The notes under the pieces: model-generated
The model's input: only the letters and a program-made list of their open reading frames with translations
Database searches by the model: none
What the model was told of the DNA's origin: nothing
Part shown: positions 29,838 through 37,788 of the stretch, piece by piece
Layout: each line of letters opens with the position of its first letter
How positions within the stretch are numbered: the first letter of the stretch is position 1
NCBI GenBank assembly: GCA_003353855.1
Contig: PIVS01000004.1
Location: forward strand, 1-37,788
Reading direction: 5' to 3'
Source of the DNA: Desulfobacteraceae bacterium
GTDB lineage: Bacteria > Desulfobacterota > Desulfobacteria > Desulfobacterales > Desulfobacteraceae
Length of the DNA: 37,788 bases
Made by a program: the position numbers and the translations under genes

Positions 29838-30728
29838 ATGATCTATTTCAAACTATTTTTAACTGCTTTTTTATGGGGGGGGACCTTTATTGCCGGAAAA
29901 GGAATTGCCGGCAGTGTAGACCCCTATTGCGCTGCTTTCTTAAGATTTGCCATCGCCTCGGCATTTTTGATTTTCCTGACCCGGAAAACAGAAGGTCGAT
30001 TACCTGCCGTCAACATGGGCCAGATCATAAACATTCTTTTCCTTGGGGCCACCGGCGTATTCGCCTATAATATTTTATTTTTTACAGGGCTTTCCATGAT
30101 CAATGCAAACCGGGCATCCCTGATCATTGCCACCAATCCCATTTTTATCAGCCTGTTTTCCGTTTTATTGTTTAAAGACAAGCTATCCTTTTTAAAATTA
30201 GCCGGTCTTGGTTTATCCGTAGCCGGTGCATTGATCGTCATCTCCTCGGGTCACATCTCAAATATTTTCAAAAGCGGCATTGGAAAAGGGGAACTGGCAA
30301 TTTTCGGCTGTGTGGTATCCTGGGTGTCTTATTCTCTCATGGGCAAGCCCCTGATGCGGAGGCTATCTCCAATGGCAGCTGTTTGTTATTCAGCCGTTGC
30401 CGGCACCCTCATGCTTTTTTTTCCAGCCCTGGCCCATGGCCTTTTTTCCAACCTGCCTTCCTATGGGTTCATGGATTGGGCCAGTCTCTTTTATCTGGGA
30501 TTTTTTGGAACGGTTTTGGGATTTTTCTGGTATTATGAGGGGATACAGGAAATCGGCCCCATGAAGGCCGGGGTATTTATTAATTTTGTACCGGTCTCCG
30601 CCATTGTTTTATCCTATTTTATCCTGAATGAGCCTGTAACAAAAGAAATCTTCACAGGCGCAATCCTGGTCGTTGCCGGGGTTTATCTCATCAATTCATC
30701 CGGATTCCGGACAAAGAACAAGAGATAG
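29838..30728 (+). CDS. EamA/DMT-family transporter
   Basis: This 296-residue membrane protein has ten predicted helices arranged as two EamA repeats (about 4-135 and 150-288). Family marks include AFLWGGTFIAGKGIAGSVDPYCAAFLRF near the start, NANRASLIIATNPIFI at the end of repeat 1, and GPMKAGVFINFVPVSAIVLSYFILNEPVT in repeat 2. DMT transporters export amino acids or other small metabolites; the substrate is not predictable here. ATG 29838 with AGGGGA upstream is used rather than the upstream TTG at 29775, which lies within a promoter-like TTGACTTTT. Confidence 0.88.
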   Translation: MIYFKLFLTAFLWGGTFIAGKGIAGSVDPYCAAFLRFAIASAFLIFLTRKTEGRLPAVNMGQIINILFLGATGVFAYNILFFTGLSMINANRASLIIATNPIFISLFSVLLFKDKLSFLKLAGLGLSVAGALIVISSGHISNIFKSGIGKGELAIFGCVVSWVSYSLMGKPLMRRLSPMAAVCYSAVAGTLMLFFPALAHGLFSNLPSYGFMDWASLFYLGFFGTVLGFFWYYEGIQEIGPMKAGVFINFVPVSAIVLSYFILNEPVTKEIFTGAILVVAGVYLINSSGFRTKNKR

Positions 30729-30817
30729 CGGGGGGGATATACCTAAGTTGAAGCAGATGTTTCCGGGCTTAGAAAACCGGATGGCGGGTCAAGCTTATAA
30801 CCAGGGGAAAAACTCGC

Positions 30818-30858
30818 AAAAAAAATGCCGGTATCTGTCGTATAGATCCCGGCATTTT
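30818..30858 (-). terminator. intrinsic terminator between the EamA and ferredoxin genes
   Basis: AAAATGCCGG (30822-30831) pairs with CCGGCATTTT (30849-30858), and beyond one mismatch ATCT/AGAT (30833-30836 with 30844-30847) extends the stem around a 7-nt loop. On the - strand the stem runs into eight Ts (complement of 30818-30825), a strong terminator for the ferredoxin gene. On the + strand only four Ts follow, so it may also stop the EamA transcript less efficiently. Confidence 0.85.
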
Positions 30859-30880
30859 CATATACTAAAAAACGCGCTAA

Positions 30881-31069
30881 TCAGTCTTCTTCGATTACAA
30901 TCGCATCTTCTTCACAAACTTCAACGCAGCTTTCACAGCCCATGCACTCTTCTGCATTAACAGCAACTGATTTTTCGTCTTCCATCTCAAATACCTCTAC
31001 GGGGCAAACGTCTACACATTCTTCACAACCAACACATTTTGCTTCGTCAACAATTGGATTAAATGCCAT
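30881..31069 (-). CDS. 2[4Fe-4S] ferredoxin
   Basis: This 62-residue acidic clostridial-type ferredoxin has ligands C12, C15, C18, C22 (CVGCEECVDVCP) and C42, C45, C48, C52 (CMGCESCVEVCE). The proline usual after the last cysteine of the second motif is Glu. Such proteins carry low-potential electrons in anaerobes. AAGGAG precedes the ATG by about 9 nt. It is monocistronic with a strong terminator. It is a plausible donor for the NADH-module-free complex I encoded nearby, but that link is inference. Confidence 0.95.
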   Translation of the reverse strand: MAFNPIVDEAKCVGCEECVDVCPVEVFEMEDEKSVAVNAEECMGCESCVEVCEEDAIVIEED

Positions 31070-31096
31070 CTTAAAAATCTCCTTAATAATTAATAG

Positions 31097-31164
31097 TTTT
31101 ATAAAATCATTTGGTAAATATAAACCTGTTTAAAAAACGCTTTTATAACATGCCATTTGGTAAA
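31097..31164. repeat. imperfect direct repeat upstream of the ferredoxin gene
   Basis: CATTTGGTAAA occurs at 31108-31118 and 31154-31164. Each copy is preceded by TTTTATAA (31097 and 31141), so a segment of about 22-24 nt is present twice, 44-46 nt apart, in the 105-nt region between the ferredoxin start and the end of the unknown gene. It may be a binding site pair or a duplicated promoter element. Confidence 0.4.
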
Positions 31165-31174
31165 ATCAAGTTCT

Positions 31175-32155
31175 TTATGATTTTAGTTGTACCAGACAGA
31201 CGGCAATCGACTGACCTGGCATATTTAAAAATTGTTTCATGCCCTCTCCCGGAAAAAGGCACAATTTAATTCGGCCTGCCCTCAGACAATTATCATCCAC
31301 TTCAGGCTGATCAACCCCGGAAGAACCTTTTCCTGCAACTGCTTCTTCTAAAAACTGAAAAAAAGTCTGGTGCCACCTGCCTTCATTTACACATCCATTC
31401 TCATGCACTTTTATGGAATCAATGTCAAGGGCATTTATCACACCCTCGGACTTGGACACCATGTAGTCCATCACAGCCGGGCTTGTGGTGATTAAAAGGG
31501 GAGATGCTCCAGACTTCTTAAACAGCTCTTTTTCACCTGCATATCTGAACCAGGAGGTGATTCTTTCTTCGGTCATTATTCTTCCTGGATCGGAAGGGGG
31601 TGAATTTAATGAGACTAAATCAGATTGCTCAAAACTATTTTCAGAAGTCTTTTCCGATATTTCCCCGGTTAATTCGGAAAAAAGCGAAGACTTGCTCTGG
31701 TCCAAAGCATCCAATTCATCATCAATATCTTCATTCTGCACATCCAATAATTGGGCAAATTTCAATAACAACAACGGATTCGACCCAGCCTTTTTTTCAT
31801 CGGATGCTTCTTTTTTCTGGGTTCCTTTTCGAATCTGGGACTGGAGACTGGAAAGCCCGGCATCCTCCATAAAATAGGGCTGCTCCTTGAACAATGATTT
31901 AAGGTTTTTCTCATTGCCCCGGTGAAGTTGCGCCCAGTCCAGATAGGAGCTCACCTGTTTTTGGACCAACTGAACCTCCCGGGCCAAGGGAAATATGGGT
32001 TGCAAGATCCCTTGCTCTGTCAATCGGGCAAGCATGGGATCCAACTTAAAATCTTCGACCAGGGGCAATAAACCCAGGTTCAAAAAAAATGTAGTTACAC
32101 ATTTCAATTGATCTTTACTGATATGGGAAAACGGAAAAAATAAAGTTTTTATCAT
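31175..32155 (-). CDS. protein of unknown function coupled to the CysM-CysS fusion gene
   Basis: I do not recognise this 326-residue protein. It has no signal peptide or membrane helix. The N-terminal part (about 1-115) is mixed helix with hydrophobic strands (MIKTLFFPFSHISKDQL, FFLNLGLLPLVEDFKL); the middle (about 115-200) is Ser/Glu/Asp-rich and probably disordered; the C-terminal part (about 195-326) looks globular, with ERITSWFRYAGEKELF, SPLLITTSPAVMDYMV and SIAVCLVQL. The start at ATG 32155 has AAGGTG about 9 nt upstream, formed by the last codons of the preceding gene; GTG 32164 is an alternative that overlaps that gene. The 5-nt gap indicates co-translation with the cysteine gene. Confidence 0.8.
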   Translation of the reverse strand: MIKTLFFPFSHISKDQLKCVTTFFLNLGLLPLVEDFKLDPMLARLTEQGILQPIFPLAREVQLVQKQVSSYLDWAQLHRGNEKNLKSLFKEQPYFMEDAGLSSLQSQIRKGTQKKEASDEKKAGSNPLLLLKFAQLLDVQNEDIDDELDALDQSKSSLFSELTGEISEKTSENSFEQSDLVSLNSPPSDPGRIMTEERITSWFRYAGEKELFKKSGASPLLITTSPAVMDYMVSKSEGVINALDIDSIKVHENGCVNEGRWHQTFFQFLEEAVAGKGSSGVDQPEVDDNCLRAGRIKLCLFPGEGMKQFLNMPGQSIAVCLVQLKS

Positions 32156-32160
32156 AATAG

Positions 32161-34455
32161 TCACACCTTTTTGTCATGAACACAAACGCCCATGGCCGTA
32201 AGCTGATCGCGAAGCTTGTCGGCCAAAACCCAGTCATTTTTAAACCTGGCCCCATCGCGCTCCTTAATAAGAGCCAGGGCAGTATTGGAATATTCCATTT
32301 TTCTGTTAAAATCAAATATTTTTAACATGGAGTCCACTTCCCTGAAACAGGTCAGCAATTGTTTGGCACAGGCAAAATTGATTTGATTCAGGTTCATCAG
32401 CCGGTTTATTTTTTTTACCCCCGAAAGGAGGCAGAAAATAACACTTGAGACCTTCAGGTCATCTGCCATTGCAGACAGAACTCCCTGGCGGATATCATAA
32501 ATCAATTGGTCGTTATTCTCAGTATCACCCTCTTCAAATTTATCCTCCAGGGTAATGGCACCCAGAGTTTCAATACATCTATTAATTTTGGCCAGGGTAT
32601 ATTTTGCATCCCGCAGCCCTTTGGTTGACAGGGCCAACTGCTTTCTATAGTGACCAAAGATGAGCCAGAACCGGATGGTTTTCAGATTCCACCCCTGCTG
32701 GGTAAGGGTATCAAGACTTATCTCTTCAATGCCCTTTTTTCCCAGGCTGCCATCATATTGGACCGGGTCACAATGCATCCACACATTAGCAAGGGTGGAC
32801 CCTGTTGCGGCCCTGGCAATTGCAATTTCATTTTCATGGTGGGGAAATAAAAGTTCCCGGCTTCCAGTGTGGATATCAAACTGCTTGCCCAGGTACCTCA
32901 TAGCAATGGCCGAACACTGCAAATGAAGGGAGGGCCTGACGTTTCCCCATTCCGTCTTTATCCCCACCCCCCGTTTCAGTTCTGAAAGGCGAACCCGCTT
33001 TAAAAGGGTAAAATCCCTGGGGTTGCGCTTTTCATACTCATCCAGGTCAACGGTTGCCCCAAGGCGTATCATGTTGAGGTCCACCTTTGAAAAAAGACCA
33101 TACTCGGGCTGGCTTGAAATATCAAAATAAACCGAATGCAATTTTTCATAGGCATGGTCACGGTCCAGCAGCCTCCTTGACAAATCAGTCATTTCAGTAA
33201 AATGATCGGAAACCCTGGGGTAGGCCTGGGCCGGCCGCATGCCCAGGGAATTAAGATCGGCTTTAAAGGCTGCAATGCAGGGACGGACAAAATCATCAAG
33301 GGACTGGCCTGCTTTTTCCGACCCCTGTATGGTTTTGTCATCATAATCGGTAATATTAATGACATGGTTGACGGTAAATTGGTGGAACTCAAGATACCTG
33401 ACCAAAAGGTCTGTGAAGACAAAGCGCCTGAGCAGTCCGATGTGCAGACGCCGGTGCACCGTCGGACCGCAGGTGTATATCCCTATTTTATCTTTTTCAA
33501 TGGGGACAAACCCCTCCTTTTGTTTGGAAAGGGTATTGTACACCTTCAGGTCAATCTTTTTTCCCGCCGAAAACAAAGGGGTGGAAAGGTATCGTTCCCC
33601 GCTGTCCGGAAAGATGACCACAACAACTCCCTTTTGGATATTTTGGGCTTCTTCAATGGCGGCAACCATTGCCGCACCGCTGCTCATGCCCACAAACAAA
33701 CCCTCTTGCCTGGCCAATTGCCTGGCCGCTTCAAAGGCGGTATGGTCATCCACACGGATGGTGGCATCCAAGCGGTTTTTATCAAAAATTTCAGGAATAT
33801 AAGATTCCTTCATATTTTTCAGACCCTGGATCTTGTGACCCAGATAGGGCTCGGCACACACAATATTGATGTTTGCATCCTTGTGTTTAAAATACCGCGA
33901 CAAACCCATGAGGGTCCCGGAAGTGCCAATGGTTGCCACTATGCTTGACACCCTGCCCCGGGTCTGATCCATGATTTCAGGGCCTGTTGTATTATAATGG
34001 GCTTTCCAGTTTGCCTCATTATTATATTGATCAGTGATAAAATATTGTTCCGGGTTTTCCCTTGCCAGACGATAGGCTTCTTCGATGGCGCCGTCGGACC
34101 CCAGATGCTTGGGAGTCAAAATAATCTGAGCCCCCCGGGCCTGTAATATTTGTTTTCTCTCCTCACTGGCATTCTCCGCCATTGTCAATGCAATCTTATA
34201 TCCCTTTACTGCACAGATCATGGCAAGCCCGATACCGGTATTGCCGCTGGTGGCTTCAATCACGGTTTTTTCAGCGCTAAGATGACCTGCTTTTTCGGCA
34301 GCCAAGATCATATGCAGTGCAGCCCTGTCCTTGATAGACCCACCGGGATTCATATACTCCAGTTTTGCGAAAATTTTCACGCCGGGCACAGGGTTTAACC
34401 TATTTATTTCAACAAGGGGGGTATTACCGATAGACTCTATTATGGAAGCTGTCAT
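32161..34455 (-). CDS. fused cysteine synthase and cysteinyl-tRNA synthetase-like protein
   Basis: This is one 764-residue frame with two enzymes. Residues 1-300 are a cysteine synthase (CysK/CysM) with IGNTPLVEINRL, the PLP lysine K42 in GGSIKDRA, TSGNTGIGLA (69-78), GTSGTLMG (177-184) and FPDSGERYLST (282-292). Residues 315-764 are a cysteinyl-tRNA synthetase: zinc ligands C329, C514, H539 and E543 are kept and the HIGH element is HIGL (338-341). KMSKS is degenerate (GSLGKKG, 569-575), the usual PGWH is PSLH, and the Trp is lost. The C-terminal anticodon-binding region ends ADKLRDQLTAMGVCVHD. ATG 34455 is used (AAAGGA 6 nt upstream). It may make Cys and charge tRNA-Cys, or the second half may have a new role. 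Confidence 0.9.
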   Translation of the reverse strand: MTASIIESIGNTPLVEINRLNPVPGVKIFAKLEYMNPGGSIKDRAALHMILAAEKAGHLSAEKTVIEATSGNTGIGLAMICAVKGYKIALTMAENASEERKQILQARGAQIILTPKHLGSDGAIEEAYRLARENPEQYFITDQYNNEANWKAHYNTTGPEIMDQTRGRVSSIVATIGTSGTLMGLSRYFKHKDANINIVCAEPYLGHKIQGLKNMKESYIPEIFDKNRLDATIRVDDHTAFEAARQLARQEGLFVGMSSGAAMVAAIEEAQNIQKGVVVVIFPDSGERYLSTPLFSAGKKIDLKVYNTLSKQKEGFVPIEKDKIGIYTCGPTVHRRLHIGLLRRFVFTDLLVRYLEFHQFTVNHVINITDYDDKTIQGSEKAGQSLDDFVRPCIAAFKADLNSLGMRPAQAYPRVSDHFTEMTDLSRRLLDRDHAYEKLHSVYFDISSQPEYGLFSKVDLNMIRLGATVDLDEYEKRNPRDFTLLKRVRLSELKRGVGIKTEWGNVRPSLHLQCSAIAMRYLGKQFDIHTGSRELLFPHHENEIAIARAATGSTLANVWMHCDPVQYDGSLGKKGIEEISLDTLTQQGWNLKTIRFWLIFGHYRKQLALSTKGLRDAKYTLAKINRCIETLGAITLEDKFEEGDTENNDQLIYDIRQGVLSAMADDLKVSSVIFCLLSGVKKINRLMNLNQINFACAKQLLTCFREVDSMLKIFDFNRKMEYSNTALALIKERDGARFKNDWVLADKLRDQLTAMGVCVHDKKV

Positions 34456-34541
34456 AAATGTCCTTTCTAACCCGGCAGTCATGATCAATTATCTAATTAA
34501 TAAAAAGCTGTCTTGCCGGATCTTTGTAAGCTTATTCTGAC

Positions 34542-34571
34542 TTGACTTTTGCAATATAAAATGGCTTTATA
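34542..34571 (+). promoter_or_regulatory. possible promoter of the lptD operon
   Basis: TTGACT (34542-34547) and TTTATA (34566-34571), 18 nt apart, lie about 40 nt before lptD in the divergent gap with the cysteine gene. TTGACTTTT here is identical to elements before four other + strand genes of the window. The -10 match is moderate. Confidence 0.4.
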
Positions 34572-34611
34572 CAATAATTTTAATTGATGTGCAATTTATT
34601 ACTGGACAGCT

Positions 34612-36876
34612 ATGTTTTGCTTATTTTTCAAAGGAAAACTGCCGTTGATAGCGGCAGTTGCTTTTTTTTGTTGTTTGGTTTCAGCTAGGGTTGTAACAGC
34701 CAAGACTCTTCCTGAAAATCCCAAGGAAATCTCCTGGCATATTTCCGCCCTCATGGTAACCTATGACAATGAACGGAATCTGTATATTGCCGAAGATAAC
34801 GTGGTAATCACCGGCGGTGCAACACGACTGGAAGCCGATTATGTAGAATTTTCCAACAAGACAAAAGATGCATTTGCCCAGGGCAATGTCTTGTTCCTTT
34901 CCGGCCAGGATTCCATCACCTGCAATGCAATGCAGATCAATCTTCTGACAGAAAAAGGAACCATAAATAAAGGAACCATCTTCATCCAGGAAAATAATTT
35001 TTATATCAACGGCGAAAATATTAAAAAAACAGGGGAATTTACCTATAGTGCAGACAAGGGCTCCATCACCTCCTGCGAAGGTGATGACCCGGACTGGAAA
35101 ATTTCTGGCAAAAACATAAGGGTAACCGTTGAAGGCTATGGATATGCCGACAATACAGTTCTCTGGGCCAAAAAGCTCCCCACCCTCTATTCCCCGTTTC
35201 TTTCCTTTCCCGTAAAAACAAAGCGCCAGACCGGCCTGTTATTTCCCCGGGTAACCAGTTCGGACAAAAAGGGGTTTGAATATGAGCAGCCCTTGTTTAT
35301 AGCCATTTCAAGAAACGTGGATGCAACCTTTTATGCCAATTATATGTCGGACCGGGGCACAAAGGTTGCCGGTGAATTCAGATATGTACTGGATAACGCC
35401 TCACAGGGCTCCATGTTTTTAGACTTTCTGGATGATTCAAAACTTGGCGACGGCACAGATGATACCGAAAAAAACACATACAGCTATGACAGCACCCCCC
35501 CACGGACCAACCGGGACCGGTACTGGTTTCGAATGAAACACAACCAGGACCTGACCAATGGTTTTTCAGGAAAACTGGACCTGGACATTGTCAGTGATGC
35601 AGACTACCTTCAGGAATTCAGGGATGGATTCACAGGCTATGATGGCACCAATGAATATTTTGAAACTGTCTTTGGAAGAAGTCTTGATGAATATGATGAC
35701 ACCACCCGGAAAAACAGTCTGGTCATCAGCAAATCCTGGTCCAATTATTATTTTAATGCCCAGGCGCTGTGGTATGATAATGTTGAGGCCCGGCAGGAGG
35801 ACACAGCAGACACCACCCTGCAAACTCTTCCCAGCCTTGAACTTGACTCCGCAAGGCAGCAGATCAAGAACTCCGGAGTTTATTATAAACTGGACTCGGA
35901 ATTCAGATCCTTTTACCGCCAGGACACCGACCAGGAGGCAAGCACGCCGCTTGTTAGCGGGCAAAGGATTGATATCTACCCCAAATTTTACCTTCCCACC
36001 CGCCTTGGCAAATCCTTTTTCTTTGAGCCCTTTATCGGTACCCGGGGGACTTCCTGGTTTACGGATAACTTTACAGATACCGACGGAAATGACGACAAAT
36101 TCAGAACCCGGGCCACCTATGACCTGGGGGCCGAGTTGTCCACATCCCTGAACAAGATTTTCACCCTGAACAACAGCTTTGCAGAAAAGGTCAAGCATGC
36201 GGTTGTGCCCAAGCTTGAATACAGCTTTCAGCCCGATGCATCCCCGGAGGATTTACCCTACTTTGACGCCATTGACAGTATTCAGGAAGAAAATCTTCTC
36301 ACCTGGTCCTTGACCAACAGCTTTATTGCCAGAAACATGGTTGAAACTCCGGAGGGAACCCAGTCAAATTCATACAAGGAATTTATCTGGATCAAACTTT
36401 ACCAGAGCTATGATATTGATGCTGAAAAGGATGAAACCCAATCAAAACCCTGGTCGGACATCAGCCTTGAGAGTGAAATCAATCCCTTTGAGTATTTTTC
36501 AATGGATGCGAACATTGACTGGTCTCCCTATACAAATCATTTCACCGACACCAAAATAGGGGCAACCATAAAAGACCATCGGGGGGATTCCATCCGTACC
36601 TACTACCGGTATACACAGGACTCTTTAGAAACTTCTATCGATGAATCTCTCGAAACCTGGTATACCCGTCTCAACCTCCAGCTTACCCAGTCTCTTATGG
36701 CCTATTGTTCATATGAGGCAGATCTGTATACAAATAAAAACATTGAAAGCCGCATCGGCATCACCATTGAAAAGGCCTGCTGGGGATTGGGCCTGGAATT
36801 TAAAGATACTTCTGCTGACACGAGTATCACCTTTTTGGTCACCCTTAACGGAATTGGAGGGTTTGGCACCCAATGA
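34612..36876 (+). CDS. lptD: LPS-assembly protein LptD
   Basis: The 754-residue outer-membrane protein has a signal peptide (core LPLIAAVAFFCCLVSARVV, ending near TAK at 31), an OstA-type beta-jellyroll (about 40-150: LYIAEDNVVITGGATRLEADYVEF, AFAQGNVLFLSG), and a large beta-barrel domain from about 190 (PTLYSPFLSFPVKTKRQTGLLFPRV is the junction signature). LptD with LptE inserts lipopolysaccharide into the outer leaflet. Barrel strands rich in alternating aromatic residues run to the C-terminus, which ends FGTQ. Only a weak ribosome site is visible. The stop overlaps the NusG-like start by 4 nt. Confidence 0.93.
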   Translation: MFCLFFKGKLPLIAAVAFFCCLVSARVVTAKTLPENPKEISWHISALMVTYDNERNLYIAEDNVVITGGATRLEADYVEFSNKTKDAFAQGNVLFLSGQDSITCNAMQINLLTEKGTINKGTIFIQENNFYINGENIKKTGEFTYSADKGSITSCEGDDPDWKISGKNIRVTVEGYGYADNTVLWAKKLPTLYSPFLSFPVKTKRQTGLLFPRVTSSDKKGFEYEQPLFIAISRNVDATFYANYMSDRGTKVAGEFRYVLDNASQGSMFLDFLDDSKLGDGTDDTEKNTYSYDSTPPRTNRDRYWFRMKHNQDLTNGFSGKLDLDIVSDADYLQEFRDGFTGYDGTNEYFETVFGRSLDEYDDTTRKNSLVISKSWSNYYFNAQALWYDNVEARQEDTADTTLQTLPSLELDSARQQIKNSGVYYKLDSEFRSFYRQDTDQEASTPLVSGQRIDIYPKFYLPTRLGKSFFFEPFIGTRGTSWFTDNFTDTDGNDDKFRTRATYDLGAELSTSLNKIFTLNNSFAEKVKHAVVPKLEYSFQPDASPEDLPYFDAIDSIQEENLLTWSLTNSFIARNMVETPEGTQSNSYKEFIWIKLYQSYDIDAEKDETQSKPWSDISLESEINPFEYFSMDANIDWSPYTNHFTDTKIGATIKDHRGDSIRTYYRYTQDSLETSIDESLETWYTRLNLQLTQSLMAYCSYEADLYTNKNIESRIGITIEKACWGLGLEFKDTSADTSITFLVTLNGIGGFGTQ

Positions 36877-37397
36877 AGAAATGCTTAAACTGGTTTGCGC
36901 TTTTAACCCGAAGTAATTTTGAACAAACAGTCTATAATGTGATTAGCGGTAAAAGCATAGATGTCTTTTTACCCAGGACAAAAAAAAAGAGCAAAAGAAA
37001 AGACAGGACCCTGATGATTGAAGTCCCGTTATTTCCCGGTTATTTATTTGTGAGGTCCACGTTTGAAGCCTCAGACCAGCTCAATATCCTGAAAACCACA
37101 GGAGCTGTCAGGCTGCTGGGAAATAAAAGGGGACCGCTTCCCATTCCCGATTCCCAGATAAACTCCTTGCAGCTTATGACCAATGCAAATATGGATCTCA
37201 TTACAGGACGCTCAATTTTGCTTCAAAAAGGAGATCCCGTAATGATTTTAGAGGGCCCCATGACTGGATTGAAAGGAGAATTCACCCGGCACAAAGGAAA
37301 GGGACGGATCATCATCAAGATTGATCTTCTCGGTCAATATGCCGGGGTGGAGATGGATGCTGAAAATGTTGAAAAAATTTCCAACTTTTCATCATAA
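36873..37397 (+). CDS. NusG paralogue (RfaH/UpxY-like antiterminator)
   Basis: The 174-residue protein has an NGN domain (about 7-105: NWFALLTRSNFEQTVYNVI, then VPLFPGYLFVRSTF, the NusG/RfaH hallmark) and a C-terminal KOW domain (about 115-170: LLQKGDPVMILEGPMTGLKGEF). General NusG is usually encoded beside rplK, so this is probably a specialised paralogue such as RfaH, LoaP or UpxY that keeps RNA polymerase going through long operons, often for surface polysaccharides. The 4-nt ATGA overlap with lptD means co-translation and supports an envelope connection. I found no obvious ops-like element. Confidence 0.88.
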   Translation: MKKCLNWFALLTRSNFEQTVYNVISGKSIDVFLPRTKKKSKRKDRTLMIEVPLFPGYLFVRSTFEASDQLNILKTTGAVRLLGNKRGPLPIPDSQINSLQLMTNANMDLITGRSILLQKGDPVMILEGPMTGLKGEFTRHKGKGRIIIKIDLLGQYAGVEMDAENVEKISNFSS

Positions 37398-37402
37398 CCC
37401 CT

Positions 37403-37433
37403 TGACTTTTTATTAAATATTCATTAAAAGTCA
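37403..37433 (+). repeat. TGACTTTT inverted repeat upstream of the HU/IHF gene
   Basis: TGACTTTT (37403-37410) and AAAAGTCA (37426-37433) form an 8-bp inverted repeat in the 77-nt gap between the NusG-like gene and the HU/IHF gene. It contains the recurring TTGACTTTT element and so may be a -35 region, an operator or a weak terminator. I could not find a convincing -10 at the right distance. Confidence 0.35.
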
Positions 37434-37474
37434 GACAAAATAATTTGCATTTTTTAATTGTACATTGAGGATTT

Positions 37475-37750
37475 ATGAATAAACTTGAATTGATTTCCAC
37501 GTTAAAGGAAAGGGCTAACCTGACCAAGGCTGAGGCCGCAGAAGTAATAAGACTTTTTTTCGATTCCCTGGCAGAATCATTTATCAAAGGAGAAAGGGTT
37601 GAGATAAGGGGATTGTGCAGTTTTCATATAAAAGAATACAAAAGCTATACCGGAAGAAATCCCAAAACCGGACAAAAGGTGCAAATCCCCCCCAAACGAC
37701 TGCCCTTTTTCAAATGCGGAAAAGAGTTAAAGGAGCGGGTAGATTACTAG
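37475..37750 (+). CDS. HU/IHF family DNA-binding protein
   Basis: The 91-residue histone-like protein has the helical dimerisation half (MNKLELISTLKERANLTKAEAAEVIRLFFDSLAES) and the beta-arm half with the family signature GRNPKTGQKVQIPPKRLPFFKCGKELKERV (about 60-89). The proline at the arm tip region is retained (RNPKTG), so DNA bending is expected. HU and IHF subunits cannot be told apart safely by eye; the PPKRLPFFK end leans to the IHF/HU-beta type. GAGG about 6 nt upstream supports the ATG. It is the last gene in the window; 38 nt follow without a feature. Confidence 0.93.
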   Translation: MNKLELISTLKERANLTKAEAAEVIRLFFDSLAESFIKGERVEIRGLCSFHIKEYKSYTGRNPKTGQKVQIPPKRLPFFKCGKELKERVDY

Positions 37751-37788
37751 CCGATGGTCATTGATCAGAGGATGTCGGATTTTGATCA

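Follow-up and report, generated by a model that had tools for sequence, protein, structure and literature searches.

Introduction

HisRS-like domains take part in regulation in GCN2 and HisZ. A second synthetase relative, MshC, is the cysteine ligase of mycothiol synthesis and lacks an anticodon domain. The lysines of the KIIK and KMSKS motifs are required for adenylation and have been proposed to act in persulfide formation as well. Within the Desulfobacterales, a CysRS-like protein without an anticodon domain, CysRS*, is coupled to selC*/selB*, as summarized in PMC9437257 from the work of Mukai et al. (2017).

Here we describe a different arrangement, in which a CysM-type cysteine synthase and a CysRS-like half are encoded in one frame. 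The gene lies in a 37,788-nucleotide stretch of DNA from a Desulfobacteraceae bacterium, referred to below as the window. We found no earlier description of this fusion in the openly accessible literature searched, and no NCBIfam model specific to it among the best 25 matches. Because the protein passes a cysteine synthase model and also matches a cysteine--tRNA ligase model, automated pipelines will probably give it a wrong name.

The fused gene

The fused gene reads without interruption from an ATG at 34455 to a stop at 32161 (Table 1), and there is no need to invoke the longer reading that starts at a TTG. The CysM-type synthase makes up the first 295 residues and passes TIGR01136 (cysKM), with 369.9 bits for a cut-off of 344.15. 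Its PLP lysine and substrate loops (SIKDR, SGNTG, GTSGT) are present in the window protein and in its relatives. The C-terminal half matches PF01406 and, weakly, CysS_C. Its match to TIGR00435 (cysS) is full length, but the score of 319.2 bits falls under the cut-off of 340.

Table 1. Features of the fused gene and its immediate surroundings, in window coordinates
Feature	Position	Strand	Basis
Fused gene, 764 aa plus stop: CysM-type cysteine synthase and CysRS-like half	32161..34455	-	Single open frame
Shine-Dalgarno-like AAAGGA, before ATG 34455	34461..34466	-	Direct sequence reading
Cysteine synthase (CysM-type) domain; motifs GGSIKDR (lysine), SGNTG, GTSGT, SSGAA	33571..34440	-	TIGR01136 373 bits over the stretch; PDB 2bht (cysteine synthase B) 1.8e-74
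CysRS-like catalytic domain (PF01406); Zn ligands C329, C514, H539, E543 kept; HIGH is HIGL, KMSKS is YDGSLGK, W205 position is L	32602..33510	-	PF01406 248.9 bits; alignments
Anticodon-binding domain (CysS_C); R737, W742, D746, R749, D761 correspond to E. coli R427, W432, D436, R439, D451	32167..32289	-	PF23493 25.6 bits; residue mapping
Overlapping downstream gene, unknown 329-aa protein	31175..32164	-	Beside the fusion in 21/21 loci of the order; overlap 4 bases

A preliminary description, made from the letters of the window, had read the gene as a single uninterrupted frame joining an intact synthase to a CysRS-like half with altered motifs, and in these respects it holds. The frame is open throughout and the same fusion frame recurs in dozens of independent genomes, the synthase half passes its model as given above, and the motif states HIGL, KTIQ, PSLH and GSLGKKG are all seen in alignments of the window protein. 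Likewise, the four zinc ligands that it named (C329, C514, H539 and E543, counted from ATG 34455) align to C28, C209, H234 and E238 of E. coli CysRS. The PSLH and GSLG states, however, mark a derived clade centred on the family of the window and are not general to fusions. It had also named a sequencing error joining two separate genes as something that would remove the fusion; the source genome is indeed a draft of 1269 contigs, but such an artefact has a negligible probability and is already refuted by recurrence, as the same frame occurs in independent genomes of many families, single-contig assemblies among them, and in-genus dN/dS is ~0.1 for both halves.

An AF2 model of the window protein, built from an 18-row alignment, has a mean pLDDT of 85.4 and a pTM of 0.60, and in view of the latter the relative placement of the two halves is not interpreted. 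When compared with known structures, the synthase part of the model aligns to cysteine synthases with Z ~38, and residues 302-764 align to the tRNA-bound CysRS 1U0B with Z 48.8.

Distribution and phylogeny

The fusion is present in about 77 of the 198 genomes sampled across the phylum and was found within the class as well; named matches in Desulfobacula, Desulforapulum autotrophicum, Desulfocapsa and Desulfobulbus put it in the Desulfobacterota. Most of the 58 relatives of the window carry a single-frame fusion, ~45 of them near full length in one frame, and nearly all fusions extend to the CysRS end (query 772-775). One candidate, L130, was dropped from the set because it turned out to be a spurious long reading frame that lies upstream of a normal cysS.

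In our trees the CysRS halves group in a single fusion clade (100/100) that lies among HIGN-type CysRS. Outside this clade fall the canonical cysS resident in the phylum as well as MshC, here a single row on a long branch. The preliminary description had looked to MshC and CysRS as the relatives against which to place this half, and it groups with neither MshC nor the resident cysS. The CysM halves, too, fall in a single clade (96/86), adjacent to stand-alone CysM of the phylum. A single ancient fusion is the simplest reading of the two trees.

The fusion is present twice in some genomes (G021:C1:2260880, G093, G103 and G107), and these copies are 50-61% identical to the window protein. In three genomes of one genus (G018, G024 and G033) the open frame is longer, at 819-880 aa, and its matches are interrupted close to where the halves join, as if there were an insertion at that point. 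A separate CysRS paralogue with KMAKSAGN and HHEDE motifs occurs in one family of the phylum (L207, L208 and L209, in G189, G226 and G261); it forms its own clade and is fused in one frame to a C-terminal domain that by eye is glycosyltransferase-2-like.

The fusion coexists with an ordinary synthetase. A separate cysS is found in 69 of the 70 fusion genomes checked, the exception (G174) being 79% complete, and in nearly all of those 69 genomes it outscores the fusion on PF01406 by far. The source genome has a canonical cysS in two pieces at contig ends. The N-terminal part, on C425, adjoins an ispF-like gene, and the C-terminal part, on C961, has KMSKSLGN and PGWHIEC. The two pieces may be one gene; congeners carry a whole cysS. 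The fusion as sole CysRS is thus rejected, and with it falls the case of a simple fusion, which the preliminary description had reserved for a genome with no other cysS and full tRNA-Cys charging.

Motifs of the CysRS-like half

We compared the motifs of 105 fusions with those of 87 canonical CysRS, using E. coli numbering. The residues of ATP activation are widely lost. H37 of HIGH is found in 47% of fusions versus 100% of canonical enzymes, and M267 in 34% versus 99%. K269 of KMSKS, a lysine in 99% of canonical enzymes, is K in ~3% and R in 30% of fusions, and the second KIIK lysine is kept in ~9%. At least eight changes of KMSKS state have occurred among the fusions. KMS(K/R)S persists in about a quarter of them (26/105), so some fusions may still be active.

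Zinc ligands are retained to an intermediate degree: C28 in 89% of fusions, C209 in 92%, H234 in 100% and E238 in 72%, versus 100% for canonical CysRS. All four are found in 74 of the 105 fusions, and the two cysteines and the histidine together in 93. C28 is lost in 12, some of which are also without C209. T68, W205 and H224 are eroding.

The anticodon pocket is the best-retained part of the CysRS half, and the preliminary description had left it out of consideration. R423 (99%), R427 (96%), D436 (99%), R439 (99%) and D451 (99%) are kept in the 105 fusions as they are in the 87 canonical enzymes, and R427, D436, R439 and D451 are at 100% even in the 12 fusions with lost zinc ligands. In 1U0B, residues R423, R427, W432 and D436 of E. 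coli CysRS touch G34 of tRNA-Cys (PMC12684709), and the window protein carries equivalents of all four. The window protein and its clade lack the last strand of the anticodon domain (GxxWR), and in ~40% of fusions the C-terminal W aligns with a gap. The survey thus indicates that selection has released the activation chemistry in many lineages but has held the anticodon pocket. The anticodon-domain residues could alternatively be conserved for structure or folding.

The CysRS half is under purifying selection, with an in-genus dN/dS of 0.12-0.16; for the CysM half the value is 0.09-0.11. Between genera the CysRS half diverges faster, with 64% identity to L012 versus 81% for the CysM half.

CysE and the substrate of the synthase half

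The fusion is the sole cysteine synthase in 24 of 36 good genomes, and cysE is found in none of these 24. It is found in 11 of the 12 genomes that have a second synthase, usually beside the second cysK; the source genome itself has such a cysE-cysK pair, at C669. The association of cysE with a second synthase among fusion genomes gives a Fisher p=2e-8, a value that ignores kinship. The non-fusion genomes of the phylum have cysE in 35 of 40 cases (Fisher p=5e-13, again ignoring kinship). The genomes share ancestry, so both Fisher values overstate the evidence, but the same contrast is seen among close relatives, in one genus (g8, G020 versus G034) and in one family (f83, G235 versus G199). Neither the fusion nor cysE occurs in four genomes (G185, G222, G257 and G285), whose stand-alone CysM belongs to a separate clade with a GLEGLKHM motif.

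Since cysE is missing where the fusion is alone, the fused synthase appears to be independent of the O-acetylserine that CysE makes. SerA is present in 25 of the 25 genomes tested, and with it the O-phosphoserine route to serine. O-phosphoserine is probably the substrate of the fused synthase, as judged from gene content. The alignment to M. tuberculosis CysM, an O-phosphoserine sulfhydrylase, is gapless around R220 and places a K of the window protein there. This basic residue does not serve as proof that O-phosphoserine is used: the same motif occurs in stand-alone CysM from genomes with cysE, so the lysine is not diagnostic.

Gene neighborhood

The overlapping 329-aa gene downstream is constant only within the order and is not beside most fusions elsewhere, and we therefore dropped it as a phylum-wide operon partner. 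Its product has no Pfam or NCBIfam match, and its AF2 model is poor (pLDDT 53.6). In many relatives (L048-L056) a gene for a tmk-like kinase lies upstream of the fusion, and in some of them surE-like and YhaM-like genes come before the kinase. The window and its nearest relatives have a divergent lptD there instead (34612-36876 in the window). Immediately past lptD lies a short NusG/RfaH-like gene (36873-37397, plus strand), and an HU/IHF-like gene (37475-37750) comes next; this order is conserved in relatives. An Rfam scan of 30500-37788 gave nothing at gathering scores.

Discussion

We tentatively propose that the fusion is a CysE-free, O-phosphoserine-using cysteine synthase joined to a non-charging pseudo-CysRS that binds tRNA-Cys and regulates cysteine synthesis. 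In the synthase half, sulfide would most likely replace the phosphate of O-phosphoserine, and serine acetyltransferase would be dispensable. The pseudo-CysRS half would have been acquired once, from a HIGN-type CysRS, and would have lost tRNA charging in most lineages, the source lineage included, with its anticodon domain retaining the ability to bind tRNA-Cys. The activity of the fused synthase would then be governed by whether tRNA-Cys is charged, possibly in combination with cysteine at the zinc site. The pseudo-CysRS would in this way supply a CysE-free pathway with the feedback normally given by CysE. We infer the use of O-phosphoserine, the loss of charging, the binding of tRNA and the regulatory role from comparative evidence. 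A more far-reaching claim, that a catalytically dead CysRS senses charged or uncharged tRNA-Cys and directly switches cysteine synthesis phylum-wide, replacing CysE feedback, is possible but more doubtful.

The main rivals to tRNA sensing are cysteine-only sensing and a scaffold. In the former, which we consider unlikely, free cysteine at the zinc site would allosterically inhibit the fused synthase, with tRNA uninvolved. This would suit the joint retention of the C28, C209 and H234 equivalents (93/105) while the ATP motifs are lost, the presence of all four zinc ligands in the window protein, and the lack of CysE, on which cysteine feedback usually acts, in genomes that have the fusion as their only cysteine synthase. 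However, the fusions that have lost C28 (12/105) still have the anticodon residues at 100%, T68, W205 and H224 are eroding, and sensing of cysteine alone leaves the preservation of the anticodon pocket unexplained.

In the latter, the CysRS half would be a leftover without a ligand that stabilizes or oligomerizes the synthase. Erosion of the catalytic motifs in several lineages and the faster divergence of this half between genera would both be expected of such a scaffold, which we nevertheless regard as quite unlikely: a dN/dS of 0.12-0.16 together with selective retention of the anticodon residues indicates a ligand, and nearly all fusions continue to the CysRS end.

A bifunctional enzyme, in which the CysRS half activates cysteine and charges tRNA-Cys so that new cysteine is channelled to translation, is improbable. 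The predicted fold is that of a complete CysRS with its anticodon domain, and five fusions of other lineages have HIGH/N and KMSRS (L147, for example, has HLGN, KMSRSLGN and PGWHIEC). The window clade, however, has HIGL and YDGSL, K269 is almost never K across the fusions, the TIGR00435 score is under its cut-off, and all but one of the fusion genomes checked have a canonical cysS.

More improbable still is an MshC-like ligase or persulfide synthase that would supply a pathway of thiol or sulfur metabolism with cysteinyl adenylate or cysteine persulfide. MshC is a CysRS-derived ligase, the two share a fold (3c8z, Z 44.0), and a sulfur-rich lifestyle makes persulfide chemistry plausible. Kinship to MshC can nonetheless be rejected, as the score on TIGR03447 is 151.8 bits versus a cut-off of 485.1 and the tree separates MshC from the fusion clade. 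In addition, the KIIK and KMSKS lysines are mostly gone, the loci read have no conserved thiol-pathway neighbor, and the fusion keeps the anticodon domain that MshC lacks. The preliminary description, correct on the fusion, the intact synthase and the relaxed signatures, had offered channelling or MshC-like adenylate or persulfide chemistry as the function. These functions fit poorly because they need the ATP site or its lysines, which the fusions have mostly lost.

If our proposal of a tRNA-responsive synthase is correct, a phylum of sulfate-reducing and related bacteria would link translation demand to cysteine supply in one protein. A pseudo-synthetase acting as sensor would account for the control of cysteine synthesis in genomes without serine acetyltransferase, and would mean that tRNA directly controls how active a biosynthetic enzyme is, within a single polypeptide. 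The fusions would also form a natural gradient, running from near-intact to fully degenerate, in which to study the conversion of a synthetase into a regulator.

Of the known systems compared, cysteine synthase B (CysM) matches the N half, an intact PLP-type cysteine synthase with 44% identity to 2bhs, but unlike CysM the fused protein bears a C-terminal pseudo-CysRS, and its use of O-phosphoserine is our inference. It is like CysRS (TIGR00435/PF01406) in full-length homology, in its fold (Z 48.8 to 1U0B), in the zinc ligands that most members keep and in its anticodon-domain residues, but differs in its degraded HIGH and KMSKS, in the sub-cut-off score of the window protein, in the synthase in front and in coexisting with a canonical CysRS. 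With MshC it shares a CysRS-derived class I fold, whereas MshC is a catalytic ligase that lacks the anticodon domain, and its place in the tree is outside the fusion clade. According to PMC9437257, CysRS* with SelC* is another CysRS-like protein of the same bacterial order; the anticodon domain of the fusion rules out that identity, and no selC*/selB* neighbors were recognized in the loci read. Finally, GCN2, with its HisRS-like domain, and the HisZ-HisG pair also employ a degenerate aminoacyl-tRNA synthetase paralogue, and we propose the fusion likewise as a regulator of amino-acid supply. The fusion, however, is built on a class I CysRS rather than a class II HisRS and is covalently joined to the enzyme that completes the cognate pathway, and its regulatory role is a proposal made here. 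By analogy, then, the fusion would resemble HisZ and GCN2 in idea while belonging to neither.
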